From the NCBI GenBank assembly GCA_029948255.1, contig JALIZF010001245.1, positions 1 through 64,000 of the forward strand: DNA of 64,000 bases. Direction: 5' to 3'. Positions within the stretch are counted from its first letter, which is position 1. Each line of letters starts with the position of its first letter. The stretch comes from Telmatactis stephensoni. Its lineage: Eukaryota > Cnidaria > Anthozoa > Actiniaria > Isophelliidae. The translations under genes were made by a program, and so were the position numbers. Shown here piece by piece: positions 1,971 through 20,745 of the stretch. Below the pieces are notes generated by a model, which made no database searches, was not told where the DNA came from, and saw only the letters and a list, made by a program, of their open reading frames with translations.

Positions 1971-2612
1971 ATGAGTCTCGTTAACGTTTCTTCAACGATG
2001 AACGACACACAGATCATACAGTGTCCGTTATTGTATCTAATCATGTGGCATCCCTCTTTCACCAACCAAGCTGCAAATATATCCACTATCTTTGTTGTTG
2101 CCCTTCACATTTTGATGATGCCATTCATCATATTTCTCAACGCCGTCACTCTCATCATGGTAGCAAAGTTTGAAGCTCTGCAAAAAGAACGCTGCCTTGT
2201 ACTGGCCCTTCTTGCTGTCACTGATTTTTTCAGTGGCTTGATTTCCCAACCCCTTTTCGTTGCTAAAGAAACTATATCATTTATTGAACAACGATGTCAA
2301 CTGCAGTCTAGACAGTGCTTTCCATCTCAGCTTCATGCTCTTGTCTGGCGCATCGTATTTTCAGCTAGTATGCATCACCTTCGAAAGGTACGTTGCCATA
2401 ACTGATCCTTTCGGATACCCAAACCGTATAACTGTACGTAGACTTGTGTACGTAACTGTAGCCAACTGGATTGTCCATCTCGCTTTCACAGTGGCATATG
2501 GAACAATATTACCAAGTGGGAATTTTTTTCTCTACCTTATTATTCCGTTTATTCTTTTATTTTGCATTCTGTATTGGTACATCAAGATCTTTGCAGTTAT
2601 GCGAAGTAGTAG
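1971..2612 (+). pseudogene. Rhodopsin-family GPCR, frameshifted and truncated
   Basis: Start is ATG 1971, giving an N-terminus with two N-glycosylation sequons (NVS, NDT). TM1 and TM2 are clear in frame 3 (LALLAVTDFFSGL). Near 2285-2295 the frame changes. The next frame holds the TM3 cysteine (NDVNCSLDSAFHLSF), the ERY version of the DRY motif (CITFERYVAI), TM4 and TM5. The protein stops at KIFAVMRSS in the third intracellular loop, where the Polinton terminal repeat begins; TM6 and TM7 are not found on the far side of the element. The single-exon, amine/adenosine-receptor-like layout is common in cnidarians. Ligand unknown. Broken by both a frameshift and the insertion, so not expected to be functional. 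Confidence 0.85.
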
Positions 2613-2760
2613 GAAAGTAGCGGTTCTGGGCCCGGGGCCCCCACGGGGCTCACGGGGCTACCCCCCCCCCCCCCCCCCTTCATGCCCGAGCGGAGCCGGG
2701 CTAACCCCTACTGGGTGGTACGGTATGTGGTACGGTGAGGTCACGTCTATTTTTAGACGA
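2604..2760 (+). repeat. Polinton left terminal inverted repeat
   Basis: Matches the reverse complement of 18040-18207. It runs from AAGTAGTAGGAAAG through GGGCCCGGGGCCCCCACGG, a long C run, ATGCCCGAGCGGAGCC and GGTGGTACGG, to TGAGGTCACGTCTATTTTTAG. The outermost part is more than 90% identical by eye. The inner part differs because the right end has extra copies of the GGTACGGTGG / TATTTTTAG unit. Confidence 0.9.
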
Positions 2761-2832
2761 ACGGAGTGAGGTACGGTGAGGTACGTCTATTTAAGGAACA
2801 TGGTTCTGTTTTGAGAGGGAGCGGTGACGTCA
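2736..2832 (+). promoter_or_regulatory. MEF2-like box and CRE upstream of the first Polinton ORF
   Basis: TGAGGTCA (2736-2743) is followed by CTATTTTTAG (2747-2756), a shorter copy CTATTTAAGG (about 2784-2793) and a perfect CRE TGACGTCA (2825-2832), about 110 bp before the ATG at 2941. CTATTTTTAG fits the published MEF2 consensus YTAWWWWTAR. The same pair of motifs sits upstream of other genes in this element. Confidence 0.55.
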
Positions 2833-2940
2833 TTAGTGGTGGTGCAACAAGTGTAATAAAACAGGAGGGGTAAAAACCAGACATCGAATCCTTGTGACCT
2901 CCCACAAGAAAGAGACTTACTCGAAGAAACATTAATAAAG

Positions 2941-3294
2941 ATGGATCCATTCAAGTTCATGAAAAAACAGTTCATTTCCACCTATGCCGTGGAAGTGTGC
3001 AAACACCTGTACGAAATTGACATGAAATACTGTTGTGGGTGTTGTCTATCGAACAGTAAAGCCCAGTGCTTAATGTTGACAGAAGACGAAAAAATTGAAC
3101 TACACTTTGATTGGGCTCTCAGAAATGTGAATGTCCTGAAAGTGATAAACAGAGTGATGGACAATATGAGACCTTTCCAACTAACCATTGAAGTAGAGGC
3201 CGAACTGTACAGCTGGACAGAGAGAAATCCAGCATTGTTACCAGAAACATATCAAATGATTAAAGACACTGTTAAAGTGATACGAATGTACTAA
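2941..3294 (+). CDS. Small Cys-rich Polinton protein of unknown function (117 aa)
   Basis: Intact ORF from ATG 2941, first gene inside the left terminal repeat. It has a cysteine cluster at residues about 31-44 (YCCGCCLSNSKAQC) followed by an acidic/hydrophobic helical region rich in E and L. The 263-aa ORF at 4468 has a similar plan (FHCEGCENGWPSQRDHECC followed by helices), so the two may be diverged paralogues; the Cys/His spacing could bind zinc, which is inference. AATAAA signals follow near 3310-3335. Not recognised as a named family. Its promoter box and intact frame suggest an early, non-virion role. Confidence 0.6.
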   Translation: MDPFKFMKKQFISTYAVEVCKHLYEIDMKYCCGCCLSNSKAQCLMLTEDEKIELHFDWALRNVNVLKVINRVMDNMRPFQLTIEVEAELYSWTERNPALLPETYQMIKDTVKVIRMY

Positions 3295-3384
3295 AAACAG
3301 TTGAAAAAGTATAATAAAACAACAAGATACCAATAAATGTTGGAATATGATTTTATTTATTTTTTAATGAATAAATGCATTATT

Positions 3385-4197
3385 TTACATTTCTTTCCAT
3401 AAAGGGTGACAAAAAGTATACGTTTTGTATTCTTTACTACATTCTTCTAAACACTGTATCATATTGTGTTCTAATTCTGTAAAATCAAGAGAAAGACGCA
3501 TGTCCCATAAAAGTCGACACCAGGTGGTATATTCTTTGTGTCCATCTTTTGCTTGGATCTCCTCCTGACCATACCAAAATAATGGGATGGGAAACGGGAA
3601 GCCATAAGCTTCCATGACATAAGTGTACAGTAGACGAACCATTCTTCCGTTCCCATCACCAAAGGGATGTATTTCTAGAAATTTGTAAACGAACCATGAG
3701 GTCAAATGTATTAAACTGGCAAGAAGTTTCAATCCATCCATCCTACGCAGACGTTTACGGTCGATCTCATCCAACCGACGGTTGAATTCATCGATTAATA
3801 TTTGCATGGTGTGTTCAATGTCACAAAACCGTGTGTAATAATGTATCTTTCCTTCAAATTCTACCACCCGTTCTTTGTCACTGTATTGTCCCACAGTACA
3901 TAAACAATCACGATGTTCCATCAGTAGTTTGTGAACTTCACATATGATATTGTTCTCTAATAATCCAATTTCCAAGTGCTCTGAAGCCAGTCTGTGAAGA
4001 TATCGATAAGCTTCAATAAATCCAACGGTGTCTCTATAGTCTAAAGTCTGGTCCTCGTCATCGACTCCATTTTGTAGGATTTGATAGACTGTATCCTCAG
4101 CCACGATTTCCACATTTTCCTGCTTTAACGACCGACACACATAACGAGCAAGCATTCGATTTTGTTGAGAAAGGATAGTTTCTTCTTGACAACTCAT
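3385..4197 (-). CDS. Fic-domain protein (predicted AMP transferase), Polinton cargo
   Basis: Intact frame of 270 codons from ATG 4197; the frame is open 19 codons further but only to a non-ATG codon inside the promoter repeats. The Fic active-site motif HPFGDGNGR (residues about 177-185) is complete, including the catalytic His, the phosphate anchor Asp and the GNGR loop. Fic enzymes transfer AMP or another phosphate-containing group from a nucleotide to hydroxyl side chains of target proteins. An inhibitory helix of the (S/T)xxxE(G/N) type is not evident; the best candidate, LSQQNRM near the N-terminus, lacks the Glu, so the enzyme may be unrestrained (inference). The gene points left, opposite to its neighbours, and shares a promoter region with the 4468 ORF. 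Fic is not among the core Polinton genes I know. Confidence 0.85.
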   Translation of the reverse strand: MSCQEETILSQQNRMLARYVCRSLKQENVEIVAEDTVYQILQNGVDDEDQTLDYRDTVGFIEAYRYLHRLASEHLEIGLLENNIICEVHKLLMEHRDCLCTVGQYSDKERVVEFEGKIHYYTRFCDIEHTMQILIDEFNRRLDEIDRKRLRRMDGLKLLASLIHLTSWFVYKFLEIHPFGDGNGRMVRLLYTYVMEAYGFPFPIPLFWYGQEEIQAKDGHKEYTTWCRLLWDMRLSLDFTELEHNMIQCLEECSKEYKTYTFCHPLWKEM

Positions 4198-4241
4198 CTC
4201 GGACTGAATCAAAACACCAGGGTCTTTGTCTTTTACGAGTT

Positions 4242-4349
4242 CTATTTTTAGCAAAATGATGTCATGAGATCTATTTTTAGCAGTATGATGTCATCGAATC
4301 TATTTTTATCCACATGATGTCATGGGATGGTGCAATCGGTGTTATAAAA
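4242..4349. promoter_or_regulatory. Triplicated 29-bp promoter module between divergent genes
   Basis: Three head-to-tail 29-bp units start at 4242, 4271 and 4300. Each is CTATTTTTAG (third copy CTATTTTTAT), a short spacer, then TGATGTCAT (4257-4265, 4286-4294, 4315-4323), one base from a CRE. A TATA box TATAAAA follows at 4343-4349 for the rightward gene; the Fic ATG lies 45 bp to the left of the array. Motif identity to MEF2 and ATF/CREB sites is read from the sequence; binding is inference. Confidence 0.7.
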
Positions 4350-4467
4350 TGCGGCAACCACAAACACGATGTTATTCAGATGTTGCTGACCATCATCCCT
4401 TTGATTTACTGTTGGTTACGAGATTACTACGAAGGACCTTTGTGGACCATTCACGAGCGACTGAAAG

Positions 4468-5259
4468 ATGACTGGAGTTCAAAGCGTTTCCATCGTGGAC
4501 GACCAGGTGGTCATGATGATCACAGATGAAGTCGAAGCAGTGGAACGTGCGAAAGTCTGTCGAGTCCTCACCTACCTGTATACCAAACTCTGCATGAACA
4601 ACGTTTTAGAGAGGTTTCATTGTGAGGGATGCGAAAACGGGTGGCCCAGCCAGAGAGACCACGAGTGTTGTATACGCAGTGAAGAGGACATCTTCCACAG
4701 TTACTATGACGAGGTCAAAAAGAAAGTAAACTTGAATGTGTTGTACGAGATCTGCGAACAGTTTCTAAGACTAGTCGACCAACCCATGACCCAAGAATGG
4801 AGTGAATTCATCCACAGACTACCCCAACGATCCACCGCCTCAGTGTACTCATTTTGGCAAGAGATGGATCACACGTGGGATACCAACGATTTCATTATCA
4901 TAGACTTTGTTGACATGATGTGTCAAACCATGCAGAACAAGGGAACATGGGACTCGGACTTGTATCAAAATTTGTATCATTTATGGATGAATAAAAATAA
5001 GGTGTTACACACAATCTATCAGTCTAGTGTTTGTTGTCAAAGGGTGCAGACATGGGTTGTGGGTGTTAGATCCCTCCCTAATTTAAAATTACAAAACATT
5101 TTCCGCAGAATACGTTGCGTTCTCGCCTGTTGCGGGGGTAAAGTCGTGATTCAAAATTCCCAAATCGATGGAGAAGGAGAAACTCCTGGAAAAACTGTAC
5201 TACGACATAAACCAAGGAGGGAGCCTGGGAAGCGTGGATGCCCTCTACCATGCTGCTAA
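4468..5259 (+). CDS. Cys-rich Polinton protein of unknown function (263 aa)
   Basis: Intact ORF. A Cys/His cluster (FHCEGCENGWPSQRDHECC) at about residues 51-69 resembles a zinc-binding knuckle and echoes the smaller ORF at 2941. The rest is mostly helical with conserved-looking Trp and Cys residues. The start is uncertain: the TATA box at 4343 predicts a transcript start near 4370, and an overlapping frame opens at ATG 4380 and runs to 4529, so a leader peptide or a lost N-terminal frame is possible. The 3' end overlaps the integrase start at 5168 by 92 bp. Not recognised as a named family. Confidence 0.55.
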   Translation: MTGVQSVSIVDDQVVMMITDEVEAVERAKVCRVLTYLYTKLCMNNVLERFHCEGCENGWPSQRDHECCIRSEEDIFHSYYDEVKKKVNLNVLYEICEQFLRLVDQPMTQEWSEFIHRLPQRSTASVYSFWQEMDHTWDTNDFIIIDFVDMMCQTMQNKGTWDSDLYQNLYHLWMNKNKVLHTIYQSSVCCQRVQTWVVGVRSLPNLKLQNIFRRIRCVLACCGGKVVIQNSQIDGEGETPGKTVLRHKPRREPGKRGCPLPCC

Positions 5260-6244
5260 GAAGAAAAACAAAAAGATCAGCAAAAAAGACGTTCGGGAGT
5301 GGCTAAAAGCCCAACGGGTGTATTCCCTCCACCGACCAGTACGCAACGCTTTCGCAGAAATCGCGTGATGGTGGGATCGATAGACGATGTCTGGGAATTG
5401 GATCTCATTGACCTCCAATCGCTCAAGAAATACAACAGCAATTATCGCTACGTCGTCACTTGCATCGATGTGTTCTCCAAACACGCCTGGGCTTTGGCAC
5501 TCAAAAATAAGACCGGCCCCACGCTGGTTCAAGCCTTTCAACAGATACTAAAAGAATCGGGCCGTAAACCCCAGAAAATTCATACCGATCGAGGAAGTGA
5601 GTTTATCAATAAAAACTTTCAAGCCCTTTTGAAAGAGAAGAATATTCAGTTGTATCACACGTTTAACACACGAAAGCCAGCATCGTAGAACGCTTTAACA
5701 GAACCTTGAAACAACGCATGTACCGATACTTCACCTGGAAAGGCACGCTGAGGTATGTCGACATTTTACCTCAACTGGTGGAGACCTACAACAATTCTTA
5801 TCACAGCAGCATCAAACGCACTCCAACATCGGTCAATAAAAACAACGAAAAGGATGTGTGGATGACATTGTATGGAAACCAACCACCCAAGAAGGATATG
5901 CTTTTAAAGTTGGAGACCAAGTTCGAATCTCCAAGTCGAAAGGATTGTTTGAGAAAGGATACCTCCCCAATTGGAGTGAAGAAATTTTCACCGTCGCAAA
6001 ACGACTGCCAAGAAACCCACCGGTTTATCGGTTGAAAGATTACAACCAAGATGACATCGAAGGAACGTTTTACAAGGACGAATTGCAACCCGTTCAGACC
6101 AAGGGAGAAGACGAAGTGTATAAGATTGAAAAGATTTTGAAAACCCGAAAACGGGGAAAGAAAATAGAATATTTCGTCCATTGGCTGGGCTATCCAAGCT
6201 CGATGGACAGTTGGGTGGCCAAAAGCGCGACGTCGAAAAAGTGA
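5168..6244 (+). pseudogene. Polinton integrase (rve fold plus chromodomain), frameshifted
   Basis: Four frame segments in order: an N-terminal Lys-rich helical segment typical of Polinton integrases from ATG 5168; the DDE core from about 5350 with first Asp in WELDLIDL and second Asp in IHTDRGSEF; a segment from about 5687 with the catalytic Glu in VERFNRTLK; and a segment from about 5890 with the small-barrel region FKVGDQVRIS and a C-terminal chromodomain (VYKIEKIL...YFVHWLGYP). Shifts lie near 5348, 5675 and 5885. All three move the frame the same way, as single-base losses would. The enzyme would insert the element into chromosomes; this copy is broken. AATAAA near 6334. Confidence 0.9.
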
Positions 6245-6394
6245 AATGACAGAACGTTGCTAAGCAACGAGTATTGTTCACAGTTGAATGAATGTGTAAA
6301 ATGAGGTGCAGTGTAAGTCAACCAGAACCGATTCAATAAAGTGGAATATAATCGTTGTCGCGTGTCCTGTGTTATCATTTGAATCAAACCAAGC

Positions 6395-7146
6395 ATGGAG
6401 TCGGGTCAATTTTATATGACGTTGCCAAGCAACAGTTCTACGACGTTTTTTCCGGAGAACACTTTGGCCGAATATAAAGTCAAACTCCCTTTTCACGTTG
6501 ACTTGACGGGTAATTGGGAGGTGGGGCTGGCCTCCATCACTTTTCCCCACACGTGGTACAACATACGGGTGGAGATCGACGATTTTATTACGATGACGGT
6601 AATGGGGCCTTCGGGGTCGCCCTCCTTCCAGTGGGTTATTACGCATCCATTTCTGAAGTGGTCGACACTCTCAATAAAACTTTGACTGATGAAGGAGTGA
6701 AAGGAATATCACTCCAACTTGATAAACGATCCCAGAAAGTAACCGTGACCCTAGACTCTGGAAGAAGACTAAGTTTTGAAAACCGATTGGGGGTGATCTT
6801 TGGATATGGTAGCGACATCATCCTCACCAAGACGACCACCGCCCCTTACGTGTGTGATTTGAATATCAGCCTTCAATCCCTGTACGTGTACCTGAACATT
6901 GTAGAAGCACGAATTGTGGGTGGAGTGCAGGCCAACTTACTCCAAATTGTTCCCGCCCAAGGAAAAGATGGAGAAATCATCACAGCCAATTACGACAACC
7001 CACAATACGCCCCTTTAGCCACTCGAGACTTTGAAGTGGTAGAAGTCCTTATAACCGACGACACAGGGAAAAAAGTACCATTTGAACGTGGACGCGTTGT
7101 GATCACATTAAATTTCAGACTCCGCCGACCCCCCTACTTGTTATAA
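6395..7146 (+). pseudogene. Polinton penton (minor capsid) protein, one frameshift
   Basis: Starts at ATG 6395 with FYMTLPSNSS and the typical PENTLAEYKVKLP...GNWEVGLASITFPHTW segment that opens the jelly-roll of Polinton minor capsid proteins. Near 6600-6615 the frame shifts, and the remainder (PVGYYASISEVVDTLN and onward to 7146) continues in the next frame. Full length would be about 250 aa, usual for the family. It is followed after 1 bp by the X-like core gene, consistent with a virion operon-like block. Role in capsid vertices comes from family knowledge. Confidence 0.8.
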
Positions 7147-7147
7147 A

Positions 7148-7603
7148 ATGAAAGGAGGCGAAATACAGGTCTTTCACGGAATACCGTTTCAACGAGGATA
7201 TGGCATCGGCTCCTTTTTCCACTCACTTGCCAGAAGAGCCCTCCCGTTTTTACAACAAGGGGCAAAAACCCTAGGACGAGCCGCCCTCAACACGGGAATC
7301 AATATCGCCCAAGACGTTTTGGCGGGAAATTCCTTAAAAGACTCAGCACGTAACAGATTGCAGCAGACGGCCAAAACCTTGAAAGAACAAGCATTGAACC
7401 GCATCACTTCCCAAACAGGGAGTGGACGAAAACGTTTAAAACGCAAGACTCCCCAGAAAAGACTCAGTTCAACCCAGGCAAGCAAAGCGAAAAGACCTAA
7501 AACGGCTTCACAGACTAGAAACCAGAAAAAACGTAAATTACCACCACCACAAGGTCAAGTCAAAAAATCCAAAGTCACTCACCTCAAAGATATCTTTGAT
7601 TAA
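7148..7603 (+). CDS. Adenovirus X/VI-like core protein of Polintons (PX)
   Basis: Intact 151-aa basic protein from ATG 7148. The N-terminus holds the family hallmark GYGIGSFFHSLARRALPFL (residues about 18-36), an amphipathic segment like the membrane-lytic region of adenovirus pVI/pX. The C-terminal half is Lys/Arg-rich (KRLKRKTPQKR and similar), suited to DNA condensation. It sits between penton and major capsid with gaps of 1-3 bp. One of the few virion genes here with no frameshift. Confidence 0.75.
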   Translation: MKGGEIQVFHGIPFQRGYGIGSFFHSLARRALPFLQQGAKTLGRAALNTGINIAQDVLAGNSLKDSARNRLQQTAKTLKEQALNRITSQTGSGRKRLKRKTPQKRLSSTQASKAKRPKTASQTRNQKKRKLPPPQGQVKKSKVTHLKDIFD

Positions 7604-7605
7604 AC

Positions 7606-8933
7606 ATGGCGTTCGTTCACCCACACTCCACCCCCTGTACGAAAAGTGAAGTGGACTTGTTTACGGTCCCAGCAACGCAAGTCGTGGTAGACAGAGGACA
7701 GTGGATAGACCATCAACCTATCTCCACCCTATCCCCCTCCGCCCCGATTGAATACCGGATTCCAGGCACTGACAGCTACCTCGATCTCGCCAAGACTATG
7801 ATCTTCGTACGTTTGAAAATCACCAAAGCCAATGGAGCCAACCTTGATGATAAAGAAAAAGTGGGCCCTGTTAACCTGTTTTTACAAAGTTTGTTCAAGC
7901 AAGTGGATGTGTACCTCAACGGCATTTTGATCACCCAGTCCACGGGGACTTACAGTTACAAAAGTATGTTGGAGACCCTTCTTAACTATGGTCCAGCAGC
8001 CAAAAAGTCCCTTCTCACAGGTAGTCTTACTACAAAGACACAGGAGGGTCTATGGACGAAACAGATCCCACGTCGGGTGGAACGAATCAAGGACTACAAA
8101 CGCGTTACACTTTTATTGAACAGAGTTATATAGTAGACATGTGGGGTCCCCTACATTGCGACATCCTGTACAGCGAACGCCTTTTGTTAAACACGTCGAC
8201 GTCACCTTCAAACTGACCCCCAACCAGCCAGCCTTTGCCCTCATGTCGGGAGCAGCCAGTCCAAACTACAAAATAGCCATACAAACTGCCGTCTTGAAAG
8301 TACGAGCAGTTAAAGTCAGCCCCACCTTACAACTTCACCACCTCAATGAACTTAAAAAAGGAGTGAACGCTAAGTACCCAATAAGGAGAGTGGAGTGTAA
8401 GACGTACACCATACCTAGAGGAAACCCCTCCTTCACAAAGGAGATTTGTTTAACGGACACGTCCCCAAACGTGTGGTGATTGCCATGGTGGATTCCGACG
8501 CGTTTAATGGGAGTTACACCAAAATCCCTACAACTTCAAGTTGTATGACACCAGTTCCGTAAAACTGAATGTGGATGGGGAAATGATACCCTTTCAAACA
8601 ATCCACTTGAAACTAGCACAGGCCAGTGAACGAAATTTCATGGATGCCTATCAGTCCCTCTTTTCGGGGACTGGAAGGTTGTTTGCTGACTCAGGCATTG
8701 ATATCGATCGTTCAGAATACATCCGAGGTTACGCCATCCTCGCCTTCGATTTAACCCCCGACCTGTGCAGTACATCCGATCATTTCAACCAGAAGCAGAA
8801 GGGAAACGTTACTCTGGAAATCCAGTTTACCAAAGGTCTTCCCAACGCCATCAACCTCATCGTGTTTGCAGAATTTGAATCCATTGTGGAAATTGACTAT
8901 TCAAGACACGTGACCTTCGATTACTCAGCATGA
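7606..8933 (+). pseudogene. Polinton major capsid protein (double jelly-roll, F54H12.2-like), frameshifted
   Basis: ATG 7606 opens with MAFVHPHSTPCTKSEVDLF, typical of proteins named F54H12.2-like in invertebrate genomes, and reads through the first jelly-roll (DLAKTMIFVRLKI, NLFLQSLFKQVDVYLNG). At least four frame changes follow: near 8120-8135, 8180-8195, 8465-8480 and 8525. Recognisable pieces downstream include MWGPLHCDI, HVDVTFKLTPNQPAFALMSG and the C-terminal ITLKVDG-like to RHVTFDYSA end at 8933. The stop overlaps the protease ATG by 4 bp. The total length of about 440 codons fits the family. This copy cannot encode capsid. Confidence 0.9.
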
Positions 8934-9389
8934 ACAGTCGTCAACTAGAAGACCTACTCAGAAACAACCCCATCACCCGTTCCAAGTTTTGTGGGGTGTA
9001 TGCGGAAAATACCCTACCCCGACAACTAGAGACCTACCCATGCGGTGTCATTGCCAATACAGACCCCAAGGGACGACCTGGACAACATTGGGTGGCGTTT
9101 TACTTGACCAGCCGCAAGAAGGAGAGTTTTTGACAGTTACGGCCACGCCCCTCAATTTTACAGCCGTCATTACGTGGAGTTTTTGAATCGAAACACTCAA
9201 GACTGGACGTTTAATCGAAAAGGACTGCAAAGCACTTTCACTGCAGTGTGTGGAGAATATTGTATTTTTTATTTGTTGCACCGCGCACGTGGTGTGAATA
9301 AGAACACGATTGTCAATGTATTTAGTTCAAATAAAGAACAGAACGACCATGTGGTCTATCGTTATGTAATGCAATTAATGAGACAATAA
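8930..9389 (+). pseudogene. Adenain/Ulp1-like maturation protease of Polinton, one frameshift
   Basis: The first segment (ATG 8930) carries the His region GQHWVAFYL. The frame then shifts at the T-run near 9127-9131, and the second segment carries DSYGHAP (acidic residue of the triad) and CGEYCIFYLLH (nucleophile Cys). Order His-Asp-Cys and size about 150 aa match the adenovirus-type cysteine protease that trims Polinton capsid precursors. It overlaps the MCP stop codon (ATGA-type). Last gene of the rightward block. Confidence 0.85.
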
Positions 9390-9412
9390 ATATGGTTTGA
9401 AAAACTTTTATT
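9384..9412. terminator. Back-to-back polyadenylation signals
   Basis: AATAAA just after the protease stop (+) and TTTATT (AATAAA on -) about 20 bp further. They lie exactly between the convergent virion (+) block and the leftward (-) block. Confidence 0.6.
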
Positions 9413-9433
9413 GAGTTGTTTGATGTTTACAAA

Positions 9434-10225
9434 TTAATAGGAAATCCAATCCAGTCCTCGTTTGTGAGGAACGTTCAATCTCCGCCTCTGTAAAGAGGGA
9501 GAAATGGGTCGTTTTCTGGGTCGTGGAGGTGGTGTGGGAACCATGGGGTTCCCCCAGGGGAGTTGAGGGGGGAACGTTGACTTCCGGTCTTGTACAAAGA
9601 CATCAATCTTCTTCGGTCTTCATTACGTATAAAATCTTCGGGAGTGTTCAAATGAGCTAAAGCTCGAGTAAAATCATCTCTTCCAGCAGGATGAGAACGT
9701 CCTCCGGGACCTCAAAACATCATTGACAAGATCGGTGATACTTGATCCTCGTATGGGTTTTCCCCCCAAGGAGACCACGCCCTTATCATCCCACCGAATG
9801 GCGTCCGGTGACTTTTTGATCCACTGTAGAAGTCCGTCGGCTTGACTCTTGAACCTATTGGGGACCGTCTTCAATATCTCGGAATCACTAACCGGTTGTG
9901 GTTGGGATTCCTGTGGTTGGAAGTCCTGTGGTGGTGGTGGTTGTTGGGTACCCTGTGTTGAGGACGTCTCCGTGGCCGAATGGATTTTCACCGTCGGAAC
10001 GTAACTCTCTCGTTGTTCTTGTAAATTGAGAAAACGTTGAAACTGCTGTTCGTGAGTTTTCAGTTTGATGTCATCTGACACGTTGGGGTCCGCTAGAGTT
10101 TGACTCATTTGCTGGTTGAGGGCACTCATGGACTTGACCAGAGGGGAGGTTTGGAGATCCACTTTTTGATGTATTAAATTCATCACCTCTTCTGGGACTA
10201 GAAGCATTTTTCGTGTGTACTTCAT
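9434..10225 (-). pseudogene. Conserved Polinton protein with LVPEE start and basic tail, frameshifted
   Basis: ATG 10225 opens MKYTRKMLLVPEEVMNLI, a start seen in a widespread but uncharacterised Polinton protein. The middle is Pro/Gln-rich; then comes a conserved block (DGLLQWIKKSPDAIRWDDKG...PIRGSSITDLVNDVLRSR). After about 9700 the frame breaks at least twice. The remaining tail is readable in other frames: HLNTPEDFIRNEDRRR near 9610-9660 and a basic end RRRLNVPHKRGLDWISY stopping at 9434. ATG overlaps the upstream gene's TGA. Function unknown; a virion or packaging role is only inferred from its place next to the ATPase. Confidence 0.65.
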
Positions 10226-10551
10226 TTTATCAATAAACTTCCGAGGGCGGATAACACAGGGGGCAGGAGGAGACCTAAGAGATTTCCACCACTTTGATTG
10301 AGTTTCTCTTTCTTGTTTTTTAAGGACACTTTCTTATCCGCTAAGGCTCTCAACAGAGACTTGTAACGTCTCAACTTCTTTTTCTGTGTTGGGTTGACTG
10401 GTACAACTCCTTGTAGCACGTTGAGGGAGATTTCAGCCAAACACTTGATCAAATCCACGTGACAGGTGGCTAAAATGGACTTTCTCTGTTTTGGACTGGA
10501 ACGGGCCAAGACGCGGAGTAAATCCAAGTTGTGTTTCATGCGCTGAGACAT
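10222..10551 (-). CDS. Conserved small Polinton protein with hydrophobic C-terminus
   Basis: Intact 109-aa frame from ATG 10551. It combines a helical N-terminus (LLRVLARSSPKQRKSILAT), a conserved ECALNVL-like segment (LAEISLNVLQGVVPVNPTQ), basic KKLRRYKSLLRALADKK and a Gly/Leu-rich end (GGNLLGLLLPPVLSALGS) that could insert in a membrane. This arrangement recurs in Polintons of many animals but I know no assigned function. The stop overlaps the next gene's start (ATGA). Confidence 0.65.
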   Translation of the reverse strand: MSQRMKHNLDLLRVLARSSPKQRKSILATCHVDLIKCLAEISLNVLQGVVPVNPTQKKKLRRYKSLLRALADKKVSLKNKKEKLNQSGGNLLGLLLPPVLSALGSLLIK

Positions 10552-10584
10552 GATCAAATGATTCAAGTTCTCTTGTGTTGGGGT

Positions 10585-11425
10585 TTAAGTACGTTTCACG
10601 TACACCACTTGTTGCTCATCCGGAAAAATAGACGTTCGTAAACGCAGGCTGTCGGGTGTGGAGTTATGAAAATCCAGGAGGAGGTAGGAGTGTGGAAGCT
10701 GTGTAGCATCTTCGTAACTCTCTAACACGTGGGGAACCGCCCTTGGAAACGCTTGTCGTGCCAACGTGGAGATTCCCGAGGGAATCCCTCGGGTTTTAAA
10801 GGCCACAATGTAGTGGGTGTTGAGAGAGATGGTTCTGGAGTGTTTACCACCATGATACAAATTTTGAGCCAGTCTCAGACAAGAAATTCGTTTATGGTGA
10901 GAACCCCTCGTTATGAATTCCATCATATCGTTGTTGGATAAACATTCGTTCATCAGGTCGTCTAAGACGATCAGGCCAGGGGTCTTCTCGAAGAGTGCGT
11001 AAATATCTTCAGGAAACCCCTTGTAAAAGGTCAGGTTGGGAATTTCCTTCTCCATGATCAGAAAACGCGGCTGGAATTCTCCATAACAATAAAGCAATCT
11101 GTTCTATTTTCTCATCAAACATGTCATCTAAATTTCGCAATAATCGTTCACAAAAGGTGCTTTTACCACAACCGCTGGCCCCGCACACGGCGATGGAACA
11201 AGGAAATTTAAATCGAACGTCCATCAGGGGTGAAGGATGATGGACAACTGAGCTCTCGTTCGGGGTACGTGAGTATTTATGGAACCGCAATTTGGCTTTT
11301 TGCAACCAGGGTTTTCTTTCTTCCGAAGTCAACAAATGAACGTCAGCCAAATGGTTGGCTAGTCTTAATAATTGAGTTTTAGAACAACCGGGAACGGGGC
11401 AGTCTTTTCGCCTCCGCTGCATCAT
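10585..11425 (-). pseudogene. Polinton genome-packaging ATPase (FtsK/HerA, A32-like), frameshifted
   Basis: ATG 11425 begins with a C2H2-like finger (CPVPGCSKTQLLRLANHLADVH), then Walker A GASGCGKST (about residue 82-90). Near 11095 the frame shifts; the second segment begins LYCYGEFQPRF and carries Walker B (GLIVLDDL) and the C-terminal IFPDEQQVVYVKR end. The family pumps DNA into capsids. The same zinc-finger module occurs as a fragment in the palindrome at 18.8-20.7 kb. Confidence 0.88.
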
Positions 11426-11484
11426 GGTAAATGATTGATACTGTAAAATGTGTTGTCTTTTAAAGGGGTACTCGATTTTACTGT

Positions 11485-11770
11485 ACTCTCACGTTTTAAA
11501 ACCCATGGGAGGGCCAGTCGGGCCACTTTTTCACGTTTAAAAACCCACGGCAGGGCCAGTCGGGCCACTTTTTCCGGTTTTAAAACCCATGGGAGGGCCA
11601 GTCGGGCCACTTTTTCACGTTTAAGAACCCACGGGAGGGCCAGTCGGGCCACTTTTTCACGTTTGAGAACCCACGGGAGGGCCAGTCGGGCCACTTTTTC
11701 ACGTTTGAGAACCCGCAGGAGGGCCACTTTTTCACGTTTAAGAACCCACGGGAGGGCCACTTTTTCATGT
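11485..11770. repeat. 42-bp minisatellite, about 6.5 copies
   Basis: Unit GGGAGGGCCAGTCGGGCCAC plus CTTTTTCACGTTTAAGAACC-type sequence. The 42-bp period keeps one frame open on each strand (14-residue repeats ending ...REKVARLALPW on -). The last two copies are shortened. It sits in the ATPase promoter region, between ATPase and PolB. Probably non-coding; a TATA-like TTTAAAAG lies near 11459. Confidence 0.75.
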
Positions 11771-11834
11771 AGGAGACATAGAAACCACACATTGTGTTGT
11801 TTTAACTCGTTTATTTTTTCATAATATTATCTAT

Positions 11835-16255
<4,421 letters not shown>

Positions 16256-16335
16256 TTGGTTGATTGTTTTCTTCTCTTAAACTTGTTTGCTTGGTAGTCG
16301 AAACTGTGAATGAAGTTGGGGCTCGGTGTTTCCCG

Positions 16336-16517
16336 TTTTAAAGTCGAGGTTTGTCGGTCAAAAACTAAAAATAGATCCCTATTGCACCACGATCTATTCT
16401 AAAAATAGCCATGACTCCCATGGAGAAAAATAAGTGGTACGAGGTTTCCATACCACACGGGAGGTGTTCTAAAAATAAAACTTAAGGAGAATCGGATTAC
16501 AGTTGTTCTAAAAGTAG
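16336..16517 (-). promoter_or_regulatory. Probable PolB promoter with four MEF2-like boxes
   Basis: Reading leftward: CTAAAAATAG-type boxes at 16508-16517 (CTAAAAGTAG), 16469-16478 (CTAAAAATAA), 16399-16408 and 16365-16374 (both exact), then a TATA-like TTTAAA at 16336-16342 about 80 bp before the PolB ATG. Box-to-TATA spacing is about 22 bp. The same box precedes the Fic, 2941, 4468 and PC4 genes. Confidence 0.5.
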
Positions 16518-17455
16518 CGATGATCTAAACGTCTCCAATAAACACAGGTCCATGTCTCAACTTGTTCAGAGTTACGAGTTGGTGAACCATCGGATGAGTG
16601 GTTCTGTCGCTAAACTGTTTTGAAAACTTCACTAAAGTGAATTTTCGGTCTCGTTTGATAAAATGTAAGTGACTCAGTTGACAAATTTAATTCTGTCTGT
16701 AGAAACTCAACAGTGATTTCTTCGCAGGAAGAAATAAAGTAGAGTTGAATAATTGGGTGACTGCTTCTGCCGCTATACTGTAAATTTTTCTGTTTGTTGA
16801 ACTTTCATTGAATAATCGGATGACTGGTTCTGTCGCTATACTATATATTTTTCCGCTAAACTTCACAATAGAGTATTTTCGGTCTGGCCCGATAAACGTT
16901 CCTGATCGATAAGATAGAGAAGATATAATCTGATTGTTCTTTCTTTTTAAAGTTTTGTGAGTTAAAAGTTCTTAAACTCAACTCGCGGAGATCACTTAGT
17001 TATAATTAAATAGTGGTAAAACTAGCGACGGAATCAACAGACCACGAAAAGGTAAATATATATAACACGTTTGCCAGAAGAAGAGCAAAACGTTGAGTAA
17101 AAAGTATAGTAGACATATAGAAGGGCTTCTTTGACGAAGTAAGAAAGGGGAATGATGGGTTCGACATTACAGAAGTGTTTCAACAAACTGTTTTATATCC
17201 TGAACAAATGATGAATGGAATTGATAAATCATGCTTCAGTGAGTGTGACTGGGTAGTAAATGTTTATCTAGTGGACTCAAGAAATACACACATTTTGTTC
17301 CATAATCTTTTTATTCATGAATTGTGGGATCATACATTCATATTTCGATCGTATGGTTTGTCATTTACACTTTTCTTGGTTTTCCACTTTGAACACATTT
17401 ATTTAATTTTTTTTTGTTTTTGTTTTATTTAATTAATTTATTTATTTTTACTCCA
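16518..17455. other. Gene-free Polinton segment with a three-copy motif
   Basis: No convincing ORF on either strand. A motif close to GGATGACTGGTTCTGTCGCT occurs three times, at about 16591, 16754 and 16816. The first and third copies are followed by AAACTTCAC...TATTTTCGGTCT-like sequence. The rest is AT-rich. Position between PolB and PC4 suggests a cis-acting or non-coding RNA role, unproven. Confidence 0.4.
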
Positions 17456-17812
17456 CTATTTGTATTGTCTTTCATAAACTTCATAATCATTTTCGATCGT
17501 ATGGTTTTTTTCATTTACACTTCTCCTGGTTTTCACTTTTGTAGGACCATAGTTGTCTTTAGGTGGTTCCTGGTTTTGTTCAATCACTTCACTCAGCATT
17601 GGTGCAATTCTGACCAATTCTTTCCATTCGTCCACGTGCAAGGCCACACCGAATTTAGTTGGCAGGAATGGCGGGACTTCACCAGGGGTTGGCTCTGGTT
17701 CAAAGTACTTTCTAACATGGATTTTTAATTTCCCATTATATCTGGTCACCGTTGCACAATATAGACGTTCACTTAGTACAAACAATTCATCAAGGGCTGG
17801 TGGCTTCGACAT
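17456..17812 (-). CDS. PC4/Sub1-like ssDNA-binding transcription cofactor, Polinton cargo
   Basis: Intact 118-aa frame from ATG 17812. Residues about 10-80 show the PC4 (p15) pattern: a beta-rich segment with YNGKLKIHVRKYF, a Pro-rich loop, PTKFGVALHVDEWKEL (equivalent to the PTKKGISLxxEQWxxL signature) and a closing helix. The last 35 residues are charged and probably disordered. PC4 proteins bind single-stranded DNA and act in transcription, replication and repair. A TATA box (ATTATATA on +, 17873-17880) and MEF2-like boxes lie just upstream. It is the outermost gene at the right end, reading inward. Assignment is from motif reading; a fold search would settle it. Confidence 0.7.
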   Translation of the reverse strand: MSKPPALDELFVLSERLYCATVTRYNGKLKIHVRKYFEPEPTPGEVPPFLPTKFGVALHVDEWKELVRIAPMLSEVIEQNQEPPKDNYGPTKVKTRRSVNEKNHTIENDYEVYERQYK

Positions 17813-17872
17813 CTTTAAGTTTCGTTCTTGTCAAAGTTTTACAATGATCTGATTCCCACTGTCAGGTCACGT

Positions 17873-17978
17873 ATTATATACACTATTTAGTCCTTTTTTC
17901 TAAATATAGACTTTCCTTCAATTTTCTAAAATAGACGTGATGTCATTGTACCACATTGTACCCCATGGTTAAAAATAG
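17873..17978 (-). promoter_or_regulatory. Promoter of the PC4-like gene
   Basis: TATATAAT (minus strand, 17873-17880) about 60 bp before the ATG, preceded by CTAAATATAG (17900-17909), CTAAAATAG (17936-17944) with overlapping TGATGTCAT (about 17939-17947), and TTAAAAATAG (17969-17978). Same box/CRE-like pairing as at 4242-4349. Confidence 0.55.
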
Positions 17979-18039
17979 ATATGACCTCATCGAACCACCA
18001 TACCACATACCGTACCACCGTACCACATTGTACCGCATG

Positions 18040-18207
18040 GCTAAAAATAGACGTGATCTCATCGAACCACCGTACCACCCGTACCACTGTACCACCCGGT
18101 TTGGGTTAGCCTGGCTCCGCTCGGGCATGAAGGGGGGGGAGGGGGGGGGTAGCCCCGGGGGGCCCCGTGGGGGCCCCGGGCCCAGAACCGCTACTTTCCT
18201 ACTACTT
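18040..18207 (-). repeat. Polinton right terminal inverted repeat
   Basis: Reverse complement of 2604-2760, with C-run length differences. Inward of it the GGTACGGTGG...CTATTTTTAG unit is repeated (boxes at 18041-18050 and 17969-17978), so the right end is longer than the left. Confidence 0.9.
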
Positions 18208-18339
18208 ACATGGGCGCTTGGAGATACGGATTTTATCTTCTCGTGTTCAATTGATGATATCTCCCTCGTTCGCTGCACTCACTCGGGAGACATCAATCGA
18301 ACACTCGAAGATAAAATCCGTATCTCCGCGCGCCCATGT
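18208..18339. mobile_element. Small palindromic MITE abutting the Polinton
   Basis: 132 bp with near-perfect inverted arms beginning ACATGGGCGC and carrying GGAGATACGGATTTTATCTT. The loop is about CTCGTTCGCTGCACTCACTC. It touches the Polinton right end directly, which hides any target duplication. Confidence 0.75.
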
Positions 18340-18424
18340 AATATCCTCTATTTATAACGCATATTTACGTTCCTTTCGTGAACTTAAAGACAAGGTACTT
18401 AACTGATCTTTTCTGGTCTTTTCT

Positions 18425-18839: not shown

Positions 18840-19076
18840 TCATGCTGTGTTGTTTCGGTATGTTTATATTGGCATTGTTTTCATCTATTGTATTTTGGTA
18901 TACAACGAATTTGACTTTCGGTTGTAGTTTAGCTTCCTGTAAATACTTTCTTCTTTGGTTGGTATCCATTAAGTGTACATCCGCGAGATGGTTTGCCAGT
19001 CTTACGAGATATTTTGCACCGCAATCAGGCACCTGTAGGACAATCGCGACAAACACGTTTAACCATGCTTACAGTT
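18840..19076 (-). pseudogene. Polinton ATPase N-terminal zinc-finger fragment, left arm
   Basis: ATG 19076 gives MVKRVCRDCP, then a 4-base interruption shifts the frame; the next frame continues VPDCGAKYLVRLANHLADVH, the finger found at the start of the Polinton ATPase at 11425. No Walker motifs follow. Mirror copy of the right-arm fragment. Reads outward and runs out at the palindrome edge. Confidence 0.65.
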
Positions 19077-20650
19077 CGAAGAACAAACCCAAAATATGCT
19101 GTTTTATCCTAAATTGTGGCTTATATAGAAGGCCAGTAAGGCCGGAAAACAGGCTGAAAAGGCCATTACCAGGCTAGAAAGGCCAAAACCAGGCCAAACG
19201 GGTAGGAAAGGTCAGCCAAGCCAAAATCATAGAGTATTGTATCTCTGTCTGTACAAACATGCCCAAGGCATGTTTAGCCAGTCCTTTGTTATTGATAATG
19301 ACGTCACAATATGCTCCAAATGAAAAAATAATGAAAATACACTATAATTTATCTATTATGATAATCTACACTAGACTGCTAGAATCTATAGCTAGAATCT
19401 ACACTAGCTAGACTACTAATACTAGAATCTACACTAGCCTGCTAGAATCTATAGCTAGAATCTACACTAGCTAGACTACTAGAATCTACACTAGCTAGAC
19501 TACTAGAATCTACACTAGACTACTAGAATCTTGCTAGAATCTAACTAGACTACTAGAATCTACACTAGACTACTAGAATCTAGCTAGATAGGTCGATGTA
19601 GGGTCGATGTGGGGTCGATGTGGGGTCGATGTAGGGTCGATGTGGGGTCGATGTAGGGTCGATGTGGGGTCGATGTGGGGTCGATGTGGGGTCGATGTGG
19701 GGTCGATGTAGGGTCGATGTGGGGTCGATGTAGGGTCGATGTGGGGTCGATGTGGGGTCAATGTAGGGTCGATGTGGGGTCGATGTAGGGTCGATGTGGG
19801 GTCGATGTGGGGTCGATGGACCAATTTATCTATTATGATAATCTACATCGACCCTACATCGACCCTACATCGACCCTACATCGACCCTACATCGACCCTA
19901 CATCGACCTATCTAGCTAGATTCTAGTAGTCTAGTGTAGATTCTAGTAGTCTAGTTAGATTCTAGCAAGATTCTAGTAGTCTAGTGTAGATTCTAGTAGT
20001 CTAGCTAGTGTAGATTCTAGTAGTCTAGCTAGTATAGATTCTAGCTATAGATTCTAGCAGTCTAGTGTAGATTCTAGTATTAGTAGTCTAGCTAGTGTAG
20101 ATTCTAGCTATAGATTCTAGCAGTCTAGTGTAGATTATCATAATAGATAAATTATAGTGTATTTTCATTATTTTTTCATTTGGAGCATATTGTGACGTCA
20201 TTATCAATAACAAAGGACTGGCTAAACATGCCTTGGGCATGTTTGTACAGACAGAGATACAATACTCTATGATTTTGGCTTGGCTGACCTTTCCTACCCG
20301 TTTGGCCTGGTTTTGGCCTTTCTAGCCTGGTAATGGCCTTTTCAGCCTGTTTTCCGGCCTTACTGGCCTTCTATATAAGCCACAATTTAGGATAAAACAG
20401 CATATTTTGGGTTTGTTCTTCGAACTGTAAGCATGGTTAAACGTGTTTGTCGCGATTGTCCTACAGGTGCCTGATTGCGGTGCAAAATATCTCGTAAGAC
20501 TGGCAAACCATCTCGCGGATGTACACTTAATGGATACCAACCAAAGAAGAAAGTATTTACAGGAAGCTAAACTACAACCGAAAGTCAAATTCGTTGTATA
20601 CCAAAATACAATAGATGAAAACAATGCCAATATAAACATACCGAAACAAC
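18849..20650. repeat. 1.8-kb palindrome carrying Polinton ATPase fragments
   Basis: Arms of about 745 bp (18849-19590 and 19905-20650) are near-identical inverted copies. From the outside in, each holds an ATPase zinc-finger fragment, a TATA box (TATATAAG), an AGGCC-rich stretch, unique sequence and a CTAGAATCTACACTAG-type minisatellite. The centre is a 12-bp minisatellite, longer on the left side. Both gene fragments read outward. Confidence 0.85.
19580..19905. repeat. 12-bp minisatellite GTCGATGTGGGG
   Basis: About 19 units of GTCGATGTGGGG / GTCGATGTAGGG at 19590-19815 on +, then a short spacer and about five inverted units (CTACATCGACCC) to 19905. The G4 tracts every 12 bp could in principle form G-quadruplexes. 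Confidence 0.8.
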
Positions 20651-20745
20651 AAGAAAGAGTCCACGAATTATCACAGCCAAGGCAGCATAATCTAAGGAAA
20701 GCAGACAAGACCAAACTAAAACAGAACAAGAGGAAAGTTGTAAAT
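20433..20745 (+). pseudogene. Polinton ATPase N-terminal zinc-finger fragment, right arm
   Basis: Mirror of the left-arm fragment: ATG 20433, a 4-base interruption after CRDCP, then VPDCGAKYLVRLANHLADVH and about 50 further residues resembling the linker before Walker A. Past the palindrome edge the frame continues about 30 residues with a basic stretch and ends in an AAT microsatellite. A TATA box (TATATAAG, about 20371) lies 60 bp upstream. No ATPase core. Confidence 0.65.

Follow-up and report, generated by a model that had tools for sequence, protein, structure and literature searches.

MEF2-type boxes and ATF/CREB/Jun-type sites recur at promoters of a sea anemone Polinton, suggesting possible control of its presumed early genes by host signals

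The window analyzed here, a 64,000-bp stretch of the Telmatactis stephensoni genome, contains a 15.6-kb Polinton/Maverick-type element (2604-18207) in which four upstream regions carry TATA-like promoters together with MEF2-type boxes. These regions comprise both ends of the element, the divergent region between a Fic-domain gene and a small ORF, and the region of the zinc-finger gene beside the DNA polymerase B gene (PolB). ATF/CREB/Jun-type sites (TGANNTCA or TTACATCA/TGAGGTAA variants) are found in three of the four, the zinc-finger region being the exception. Judging from this arrangement, its sister families and the analogy with known promoters, we consider it probable, at roughly 0.6, that host MEF2 and ATF/Jun/CREB proteins hold the presumed early promoters of the Polinton and then jointly fire them upon signals.

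The element is a Polinton/Maverick. Its terminal inverted repeats are identical in 165 of 199 columns (blastn of the two ends), and its principal features are as follows.

2604-2785, plus strand: left terminal inverted repeat, matching the reverse complement of 18011-18207 (blastn)
2941-3294, plus strand: left gene, ORF of 117 aa with no Pfam family
3385-4254, minus strand: Fic-domain gene (Pfam PF02661, E=1.8e-11), first ATG near 4197 by eye
4380-4529, plus strand: small ORF of 49 aa, kept in sister families, overlapping a 263-aa ORF at 4468-5259
5299-5688, plus strand: retrovirus-like integrase (rve) fragment (PF00665, E=6.8e-17), frame broken in the window copy
11012-11425, minus strand: P-loop ATPase-like fragment, weak P-loop family matches, frame broken
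11835-15806, minus strand: Polinton-type PolB ORF (protein search, top match from a sea anemone)
15920-16255, minus strand: C2H2 zinc-finger gene beside PolB (PF00096)
17456-17812, minus strand: PC4 (transcriptional coactivator p15) domain gene (PF02229, E=4.7e-7)
18011-18207, minus strand: right terminal inverted repeat (blastn)

The top protein match of the PolB ORF, from the sea anemone Actinostola, is 76% identical over residues 420-1000, and 7977 of the 7988 scored candidates match; Endonuclease_7 is the sole Pfam family in the ORF, which we take to be of the protein-primed type from the DNA polymerase B family. ORFs at 6383-8933 were taken as capsid genes by eye and match no Pfam family, and the packaging-ATPase candidates give weak P-loop matches alone. 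Frames are broken in the integrase, the capsid region and the ATPase of this copy. As regards a 6-bp target site duplication, the flanking letters differ at the two ends, and a hairpin with 51-bp arms (90%; 18206-18341) immediately adjoins the right end. This hairpin may represent a separate small element or conceal the target duplication. At the left end, a receptor-like (7TM) host frame recognized by eye (2242-2603) runs straight into the Polinton, as if the element had landed in a host gene or in a copy of one. The nearest proteins of a host ORF in the window come from Exaiptasia (47%). Farther right, inverted repeat arms of 809 bp (18848-19656 and 19843-20651), 99% complementary, flank a tandem array of an 11-bp unit.

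Among 20 ORFs scanned in and beside the element, none matched an RNA polymerase family above the cut-off. Since Polintons have, to our knowledge, no RNA polymerase, host RNA polymerase II should read the element. A search of IMG/VR with PolB yielded no viral relatives, a PolB alignment gave one distant contig (L001, 42%) lacking CTATTTTTA, and the double-module pattern had 0 matches in IMG/VR.

The most regular module lies between the Fic gene and the small ORF. A sequence-only reading had described here a triplicated MEF2 consensus beside a CRE-like site at exact 29-bp spacing. The spacing is exact for both motifs, and boxes 1 and 2 are indeed CTATTTTTAG, but box 3 reads CTATTTTTAT and falls outside YTAWWWWTAR.

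4237-4323, plus strand: array of three 29-bp units, each a box, 5 bp and TGATGTCA (sequence repeat)
4242-4251, plus strand: MEF2-type box 1, CTATTTTTAG; CTATTTTTTAG in 4 of 9 copies
4257-4264, plus strand: ATF/CRE-type site TGATGTCA (motif match)
4271-4280, plus strand: MEF2-type box 2, CTATTTTTAG; fits the consensus in 7 of 9 copies
4286-4293, plus strand: ATF/CRE-type site TGATGTCA; TGATGCCA in 2 of 9 copies
4300-4309, plus strand: box 3, CTATTTTTAT, 33 bp upstream of TATA
4315-4322, plus strand: ATF/CRE-type site TGATGTCA, the same in 9 of 9 aligned copies and in L019/L020
4329-4336, plus strand: GGTGCAAT, a box of the GGTGCAAY type (motif match)
4343-4349, plus strand: TATA box, TATAAAA (motif match)

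In the nine close copies that were aligned, window included, box 3 is invariably CTATTTTTAT and never fits the consensus, and an extra T interrupts box 1 in four. Box 1 could possibly serve the Fic gene as a TATA box, since on the minus strand it reads CTAAAAATAG, about 45 bp from the Fic ATG. The 49-aa ORF, whose core is LIYCWLRDYYEGP, lies upstream of and overlaps the 263-aa ORF; its protein identity is 55-63% in four sister loci and 91% in a partial fifth, and one database search returned no homologue.

The remaining upstream regions carry the following sites.

2736-2743, plus strand: ATF/CRE-type site TGAGGTCA, left terminal repeat (motif match)
2747-2756, plus strand: MEF2-type box CTATTTTTAG, 3 bp (CGT) past TGAGGTCA
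2825-2832, plus strand: proximal full CRE TGACGTCA, the same in 5 of 5 other close copies; TGACTTCA in L054
2841-2848, plus strand: shared box GGTGCAAC of the GGTGCAAY type (motif match)
16335-16342, minus strand: TATA position of the zinc-finger gene, TTTAAAAC here and TATAAAAC in L044 and L047
16365-16374, minus strand: MEF2-type box CTATTTTTAG, 22 bp upstream of the TATA position
16382-16388, minus strand: GGTGCAA box between two MEF2-type boxes
16399-16408, minus strand: MEF2-type box CTATTTTTAG (motif match)
16469-16478, minus strand: MEF2-type box TTATTTTTAG (motif match)
16508-16517, minus strand: degenerate box CTACTTTTAG, CTAGTTTTAG in L044 and L047, outside the MEF2 consensus
17873-17880, minus strand: TATA box TATATAAT upstream of the PC4 gene
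17900-17909, minus strand: MEF2-type box CTATATTTAG, 19 bp upstream of TATA
17938-17945, minus strand: ATF-type site TGACATCA, TGACGTCA in L045 and L048
17969-17978, minus strand: MEF2-type box CTATTTTTAA (motif match)
17982-17989, minus strand: ATF-type site TGAGGTCA (motif match)
18041-18050, minus strand: MEF2-type box CTATTTTTAG, right terminal repeat
18054-18061, minus strand: CRE-like TGAGATCA, read on the minus strand

The pair of box and CRE-like site thus recurs, as had been proposed, at the left end, at 17900-17978 and in the right repeat, but not at 16365-16517: the zinc-finger promoter of family A, the family of the window copy, has four boxes and zero TGANNTCA in its 345-bp region (16256-16600). 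A GGTGCAAY box is present in three of the four upstream regions. The element contains six GGTGCAA, three of them in promoters (2841, 4329 and, on the minus strand, 16382) and three within coding parts (9276, 14349 and 17601); those at 2841 and 4329 stand between CRE and TATA, and the PC4 promoter has none. This shared box, the changing number of units and the box-free stretch at 4380-16255 are features that the sequence-only reading had not mentioned.

The boxes are strongly concentrated upstream of genes. With at most one mismatch, the element has 12 CTATTTTTAG boxes, 11 of which lie in the four upstream regions (2604-2940, 4198-4379, 16256-16600 and 17813-18208), which sum to 1260 of 15605 bases (8%; binomial p 1e-11). 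The twelfth coincides with the end of the left gene, at 3291, and there are zero boxes in the 11.9 kb from 4380 to 16255, which hold the presumed capsid genes; the genes served by the modules are non-capsid ones, probably an early set. In 1000 dinucleotide shuffles per region, the observed count of boxes (at most one mismatch) was reached 17 times for 2604-2940 and in 0 of 1000 for each of 4198-4379, 16256-16600 and 17813-18208. Both the proposal of a promoter module common to several genes of the element and the expected excess over shuffled sequence are borne out. Pairs of a box and TGANNTCA within 12 bp number eight inside the element and zero in the 48.4 kb outside. Counts of single motifs inside and outside the element had also been proposed. 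YTAWWWWTAR occurs 26 times in the whole window against 12.0 expected, with 10 sites in the element (nine in the four regions and one at 17000; six of the 10 are CTATTTTTAG) and 16 in the 48.4 kb outside. Given that TGATGTCA with at most one mismatch was observed 89 times against 73.3 expected, the CRE by itself does not stand out across the window.

Related elements elsewhere in the genome use the same consensus with other letters. Family B (contigs C758 and C391) is 67-68% identical to the window in the N-part of PolB and 68% in the left protein. Upstream of its zinc-finger gene, the order is TTATTTTTAA, TGACATCA, CTATTAATAA, TTATTTTTAA, TATAAA, and CTATAAATAA-TTACATCA-CTATAAATAA stands upstream of both the small ORF and the PC4 gene, in apparent terminal repeats recognized by eye. 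The B promoters look unlike those of family A; the letters differ, whereas the MEF2 consensus is the same. In the three B regions, MEF2 consensus sites number 4, 3 and 3 (shuffle means 0.34, 0.28 and 0.17). Each region has two pairs within 30 bp, for which the shuffle means are at most 0.009; as many pairs arose in 2, 0 and 0 of 1000 shuffles. ATF-type sites alone are mildly enriched, their counts being reached in 14, 9 and 138 of 1000 shuffles of the three regions, with a site list, used also for the other sister pieces and the family-C promoters, that was in part picked after family B had been seen. Among the ATF variants of this family, TTACATCA is named in the passages available of PMC3256215, and TGACATCA lies inside an ATF2 probe in those of PMC3944714. 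The homologue of the window's left gene (2941-3294) is found in family B at L060 4915-5262, on the right side between the zinc-finger and PC4 genes; gene order varies by family.

Family C includes, among others, C1073, whose PolB N-part is 74-80% identical. It carries CTATTTTTAG-aa-TGACGTCA in its zinc-finger promoters, often twice at a distance of about 115 bp, with the nearer pair 53-63 bp upstream of TATAAAA. Of the 12 zinc-finger promoters whose start exon could be identified, 11 have the pair (L064, L068, L071, L074, L075 and six of seven further stretches; L093 is without it); they are not independent because many copies are near-identical. The sister stretches searched for zinc-finger promoters, the first set not being confined to family C, came in three sets. 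In the first, of 11, L060, L061, L064 and L067 have a zinc-finger homologue by protein, L068 was first noticed via the motif and then placed by promoter alignment, and L062, L063, L065, L066, L069 and L070 stand outside the count. The second, of six, has the promoter in L071, L074 and L075, with L072, L073 and L076 outside the count; the third, of 15, has seven with the start-exon word ATGGAGTT and eight outside the count.

The idea that the boxes stay upstream of the same genes in sister elements holds in part: it applies to the zinc-finger gene of families B and C and fails for small-ORF promoters of families C, D and E, none of whose 7 regions has either site. Neither site was found in the one family-E zinc-finger region read (L067). 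In the 18 sister pieces scanned, 11 lack a pair within 30 bp; L067 is one of them, L056 and L057 contain small-ORF promoters (C and D), and six others have no recognizable promoter. In L054 and L055, which hold the divergent promoter of a family-A relative, the boxes are off the strict consensus and there is no pair within 30 bp. These negatives in sister promoters indicate that the code is lineage- and promoter-specific.

The geometry of the boxes leaves room for another reader of the T-rich box. In family A, the nearest box end is 33 bp from TATA at the small ORF, 22 bp at the zinc-finger gene, as it is in L044 and L047, and 19 bp at the PC4 gene. These are three of the four promoters, for which 20-35 bp had previously been proposed; in the left terminal repeat, the nearest box is 98 bp from AATAAAAC. 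The distance is 21 bp at the B zinc-finger gene and 33 bp at the C zinc-finger gene (L068 and L071), so that 19-22 or 33 bp recurs in five promoters of three families (three in A, one each in B and C), the two common distances differing by about one helical turn. L064 of family C, which is without the proximal box, has 53 bp, and the B small-ORF promoter has no TATAAA after its last boxes. Moreover, when read in the direction of the small ORF or of the left, zinc-finger or PC4 gene, all 11 upstream boxes in the window are CTATTTTTAG-like, an orientation that a near-palindromic MEF2 site does not require. The family-B boxes of the CTATAAATAA form have no such uniform orientation. Because of this common orientation and the recurring distance, the box could be an element-specific, oriented core-promoter element that is MEF2-like in looks, read by a Polinton protein (e.g., the zinc-finger or PC4-domain protein) or by TFIID, with the CRE as the sole host-factor site. 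The element does encode C2H2 and PC4-domain proteins, and the fixed letters of box 3 fit such an element. On the other hand, the B letters CTATAAATAA and CTATTAATAA keep the MEF2 consensus, not the T-rich core, in a similar place. The zinc-finger proteins of the sister families are 32-50% identical to that of the window, whereas the box does not diverge, and the pairing with ATF sites is left unexplained. We therefore regard a core-promoter element of this kind as unlikely.

The copies of family A document a turnover of whole units. A search with 4150-4540 retrieved nine copies at 97-100%, window included, and two partial ones at 79-80%. The nine have three units, and L019/L020 have two, the loss being exactly one 29-bp step. 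In the window and five copies, the left terminal repeat has one to three intact boxes, and the right side has at most two, sometimes none, along with shorter forms, with terminal-repeat units of about 70 bp that contain TGAGGTCA-3 bp-CTATTTTTAR; family-C promoters have one or two pairs. DNA identity to the window is 81-92% for left end and promoter and 93-99% for most Fic, PC4 and small-ORF pieces, and the N-part of PolB in family-A copies has 88-95% protein identity. Conservation of the boxes within families is weak and not significant. In the nine-copy alignment, 3 of 54 columns are variable in boxes and CREs, whereas spacers and proximal promoter have 14 variable columns among 89 (p 0.056). 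With 5 of 158 variable columns in the Fic coding sequence and leader and 0 of 59 in the small ORF, neither is more variable than the boxes. Of 27 places, 25 have an intact TGATGTCA or TGAGGTCA. Five aligned C copies keep 29 of 34 motif columns versus 158 of 195 others (p 0.37).

Such free change in unit number (three or two at the divergent promoter, one to three boxes in the left repeat, one or two C pairs), together with box columns that are not significantly better kept, is what one would see if the modules were functionless by-products of tandem repeats and of terminal-repeat copying within the element. Yet the promoters of families A, B and C, which look unalignable, share the box, the TATA spacing and mostly an ATF-type site, and copying alone does not yield this match because the families differ in exact letters. 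The confinement of boxes, with none in the 11.9 kb inside the element, also speaks against by-products, which we hold to be quite improbable. That the boxes are replication, packaging or integration signals of the ends, secondarily used inside, is very improbable: they do lie in both terminal repeats of A and the apparent ones of B, but they also stand beside TATA at internal promoters of three families, where ends are not needed.

An unguided search of all 8-mers in seven promoters of three families, several of them chosen for having boxes, found TATTTTTA and TCTATTTT in seven of seven; the most-shared 8-mer in 100 shuffled sets reached at most four promoters. In 483.5 Mb of genome, CTATTTTTAG-N(1-12)-TGATGTCAT has 15 matches, compared with four in the reversed control. 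Ten of the 15 are in family-A copies, and one more (C43) has the same letters. The wider pattern CTATTTTTAG-N(1-12)-TGANNTCA has 100 matches versus 16 in the reversed control, at least 28 of them in Polinton context, which makes up about 0.1% of the genome; this lower bound consists of 18 matches within 4 kb of a PolB match and 10 in family-A divergent promoters. The other 72 lie outside assignable Polinton context and include two groups of near-identical matches, about 12 and 10, in other repeats of the genome, one with CTATTTTTAGCAACAATGACGTCA (10 exact and two near; L096-L098 and the match list) and the other with CTATTTTTAGTAACAGGAAGTTGACGTCA (about 10 with near forms). Related PolB N-parts give 113 matches at more than 50 places, some with stops; in many, about 50-90 bp interrupt the match close to residue 110, which might be an intron. 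All copy and sister comparisons were made within one genome.

Having weighed these alternatives, we return to host MEF2 and ATF/Jun/CREB proteins as the probable readers. In other organisms, CREB binds the full CRE TGACGTCA. Excerpts of published work describe CTAWWWWTAG as bound by Mef2 of flatworm, insect, vertebrate and yeast and CTATTTTTAG as the Drosophila Actin57B site (PMC3250504), TGAGGTAA- and TTACATCA-type sequences as known or predicted c-Jun/ATF2 sites (PMC3256215), and, for the sea anemone Nematostella, an enrichment of Mef2 motifs within accessible chromatin (PMC6834241). A muscle-specific factor, which the sequence-only reading had also suggested, was set aside, as nothing found points to muscle.

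We propose that host MEF2 and ATF/Jun/CREB proteins would occupy the predicted sites. In resting cells, MEF2 with corepressors would silence the provirus; a signal from calcium, cAMP or p38/JNK-type stress would convert MEF2 and activate its bZIP partner. The presumed early promoters might then fire together, resembling the Zp switch of Epstein-Barr virus (EBV), and gain or loss of units could tune promoter strength. Zp, the promoter of BZLF1, combines ZI (MEF2/Sp1) and ZII (CRE/AP-1-like) elements, with several MEF2 sites and a bZIP site near TATA. In the portions of the literature drawn on, it is likewise a promoter of a resident DNA virus, whose BZLF1 starts the productive phase, and its MEF2 sites are accompanied by one of CRE/AP-1-like type (PMC8706188, PMC3944714, PMC8708910); MEF2 represses it in latency and activates it on calcium (PMC8706188). 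The genes downstream of the Polinton sites may have a comparable starting role. By contrast, EBV is an unrelated virus with one switch gene, whereas the Polinton is chromosomally integrated and its boxes, which are predicted sites, are spread over four regions.

The mammalian c-jun promoter, in which MEF2 and ATF sites are closely spaced, offers a second likeness. According to excerpts of the relevant papers, its MEF2 site accompanies the jun1/jun2 ATF2/c-Jun sites within reach of p38 (PMC2628930, PMC3413818, PMC3256215), which can act via the AP-1 and MEF2 sites (PMC2628930). The difference is that c-jun is a host gene. A copy of a host jun promoter was not seen in the Polinton, because none of the four host Jun-family genes found has the pair in the 1.1-1.5 kb upstream; a lone ATF-type site is upstream of two of the four.

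We know of no established wake-up cue for animal Polintons. In the virophage mavirus, the promoters copy a giant-virus motif. Mavirus is, in the text available of PMC8547959, an integrated Polinton relative reactivated by an outside cue. That cue is the giant virus CroV, whereas the motifs of the window Polinton are of the host transcription-factor type. Among papers listed by literature searches of a library that lacks most subscription papers, titles and abstract openings showed no Polinton promoter modules of such a kind.

The common promoter code names Mef2 and ATF/Jun/CREB as candidate host factors and calcium, p38/JNK and cAMP as candidate signals. More tentatively, cnidarian Polintons may be wired into a signal-response circuit of the host through MEF2-ATF/Jun modules of variable copy number at their non-capsid promoters, such that calcium or stress wakes the virus, as in EBV, and separate lineages preserve the code although the individual letters change. 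If this is true, a MEF2-plus-bZIP latency switch would be something that DNA viruses residing in animals have come to use repeatedly.
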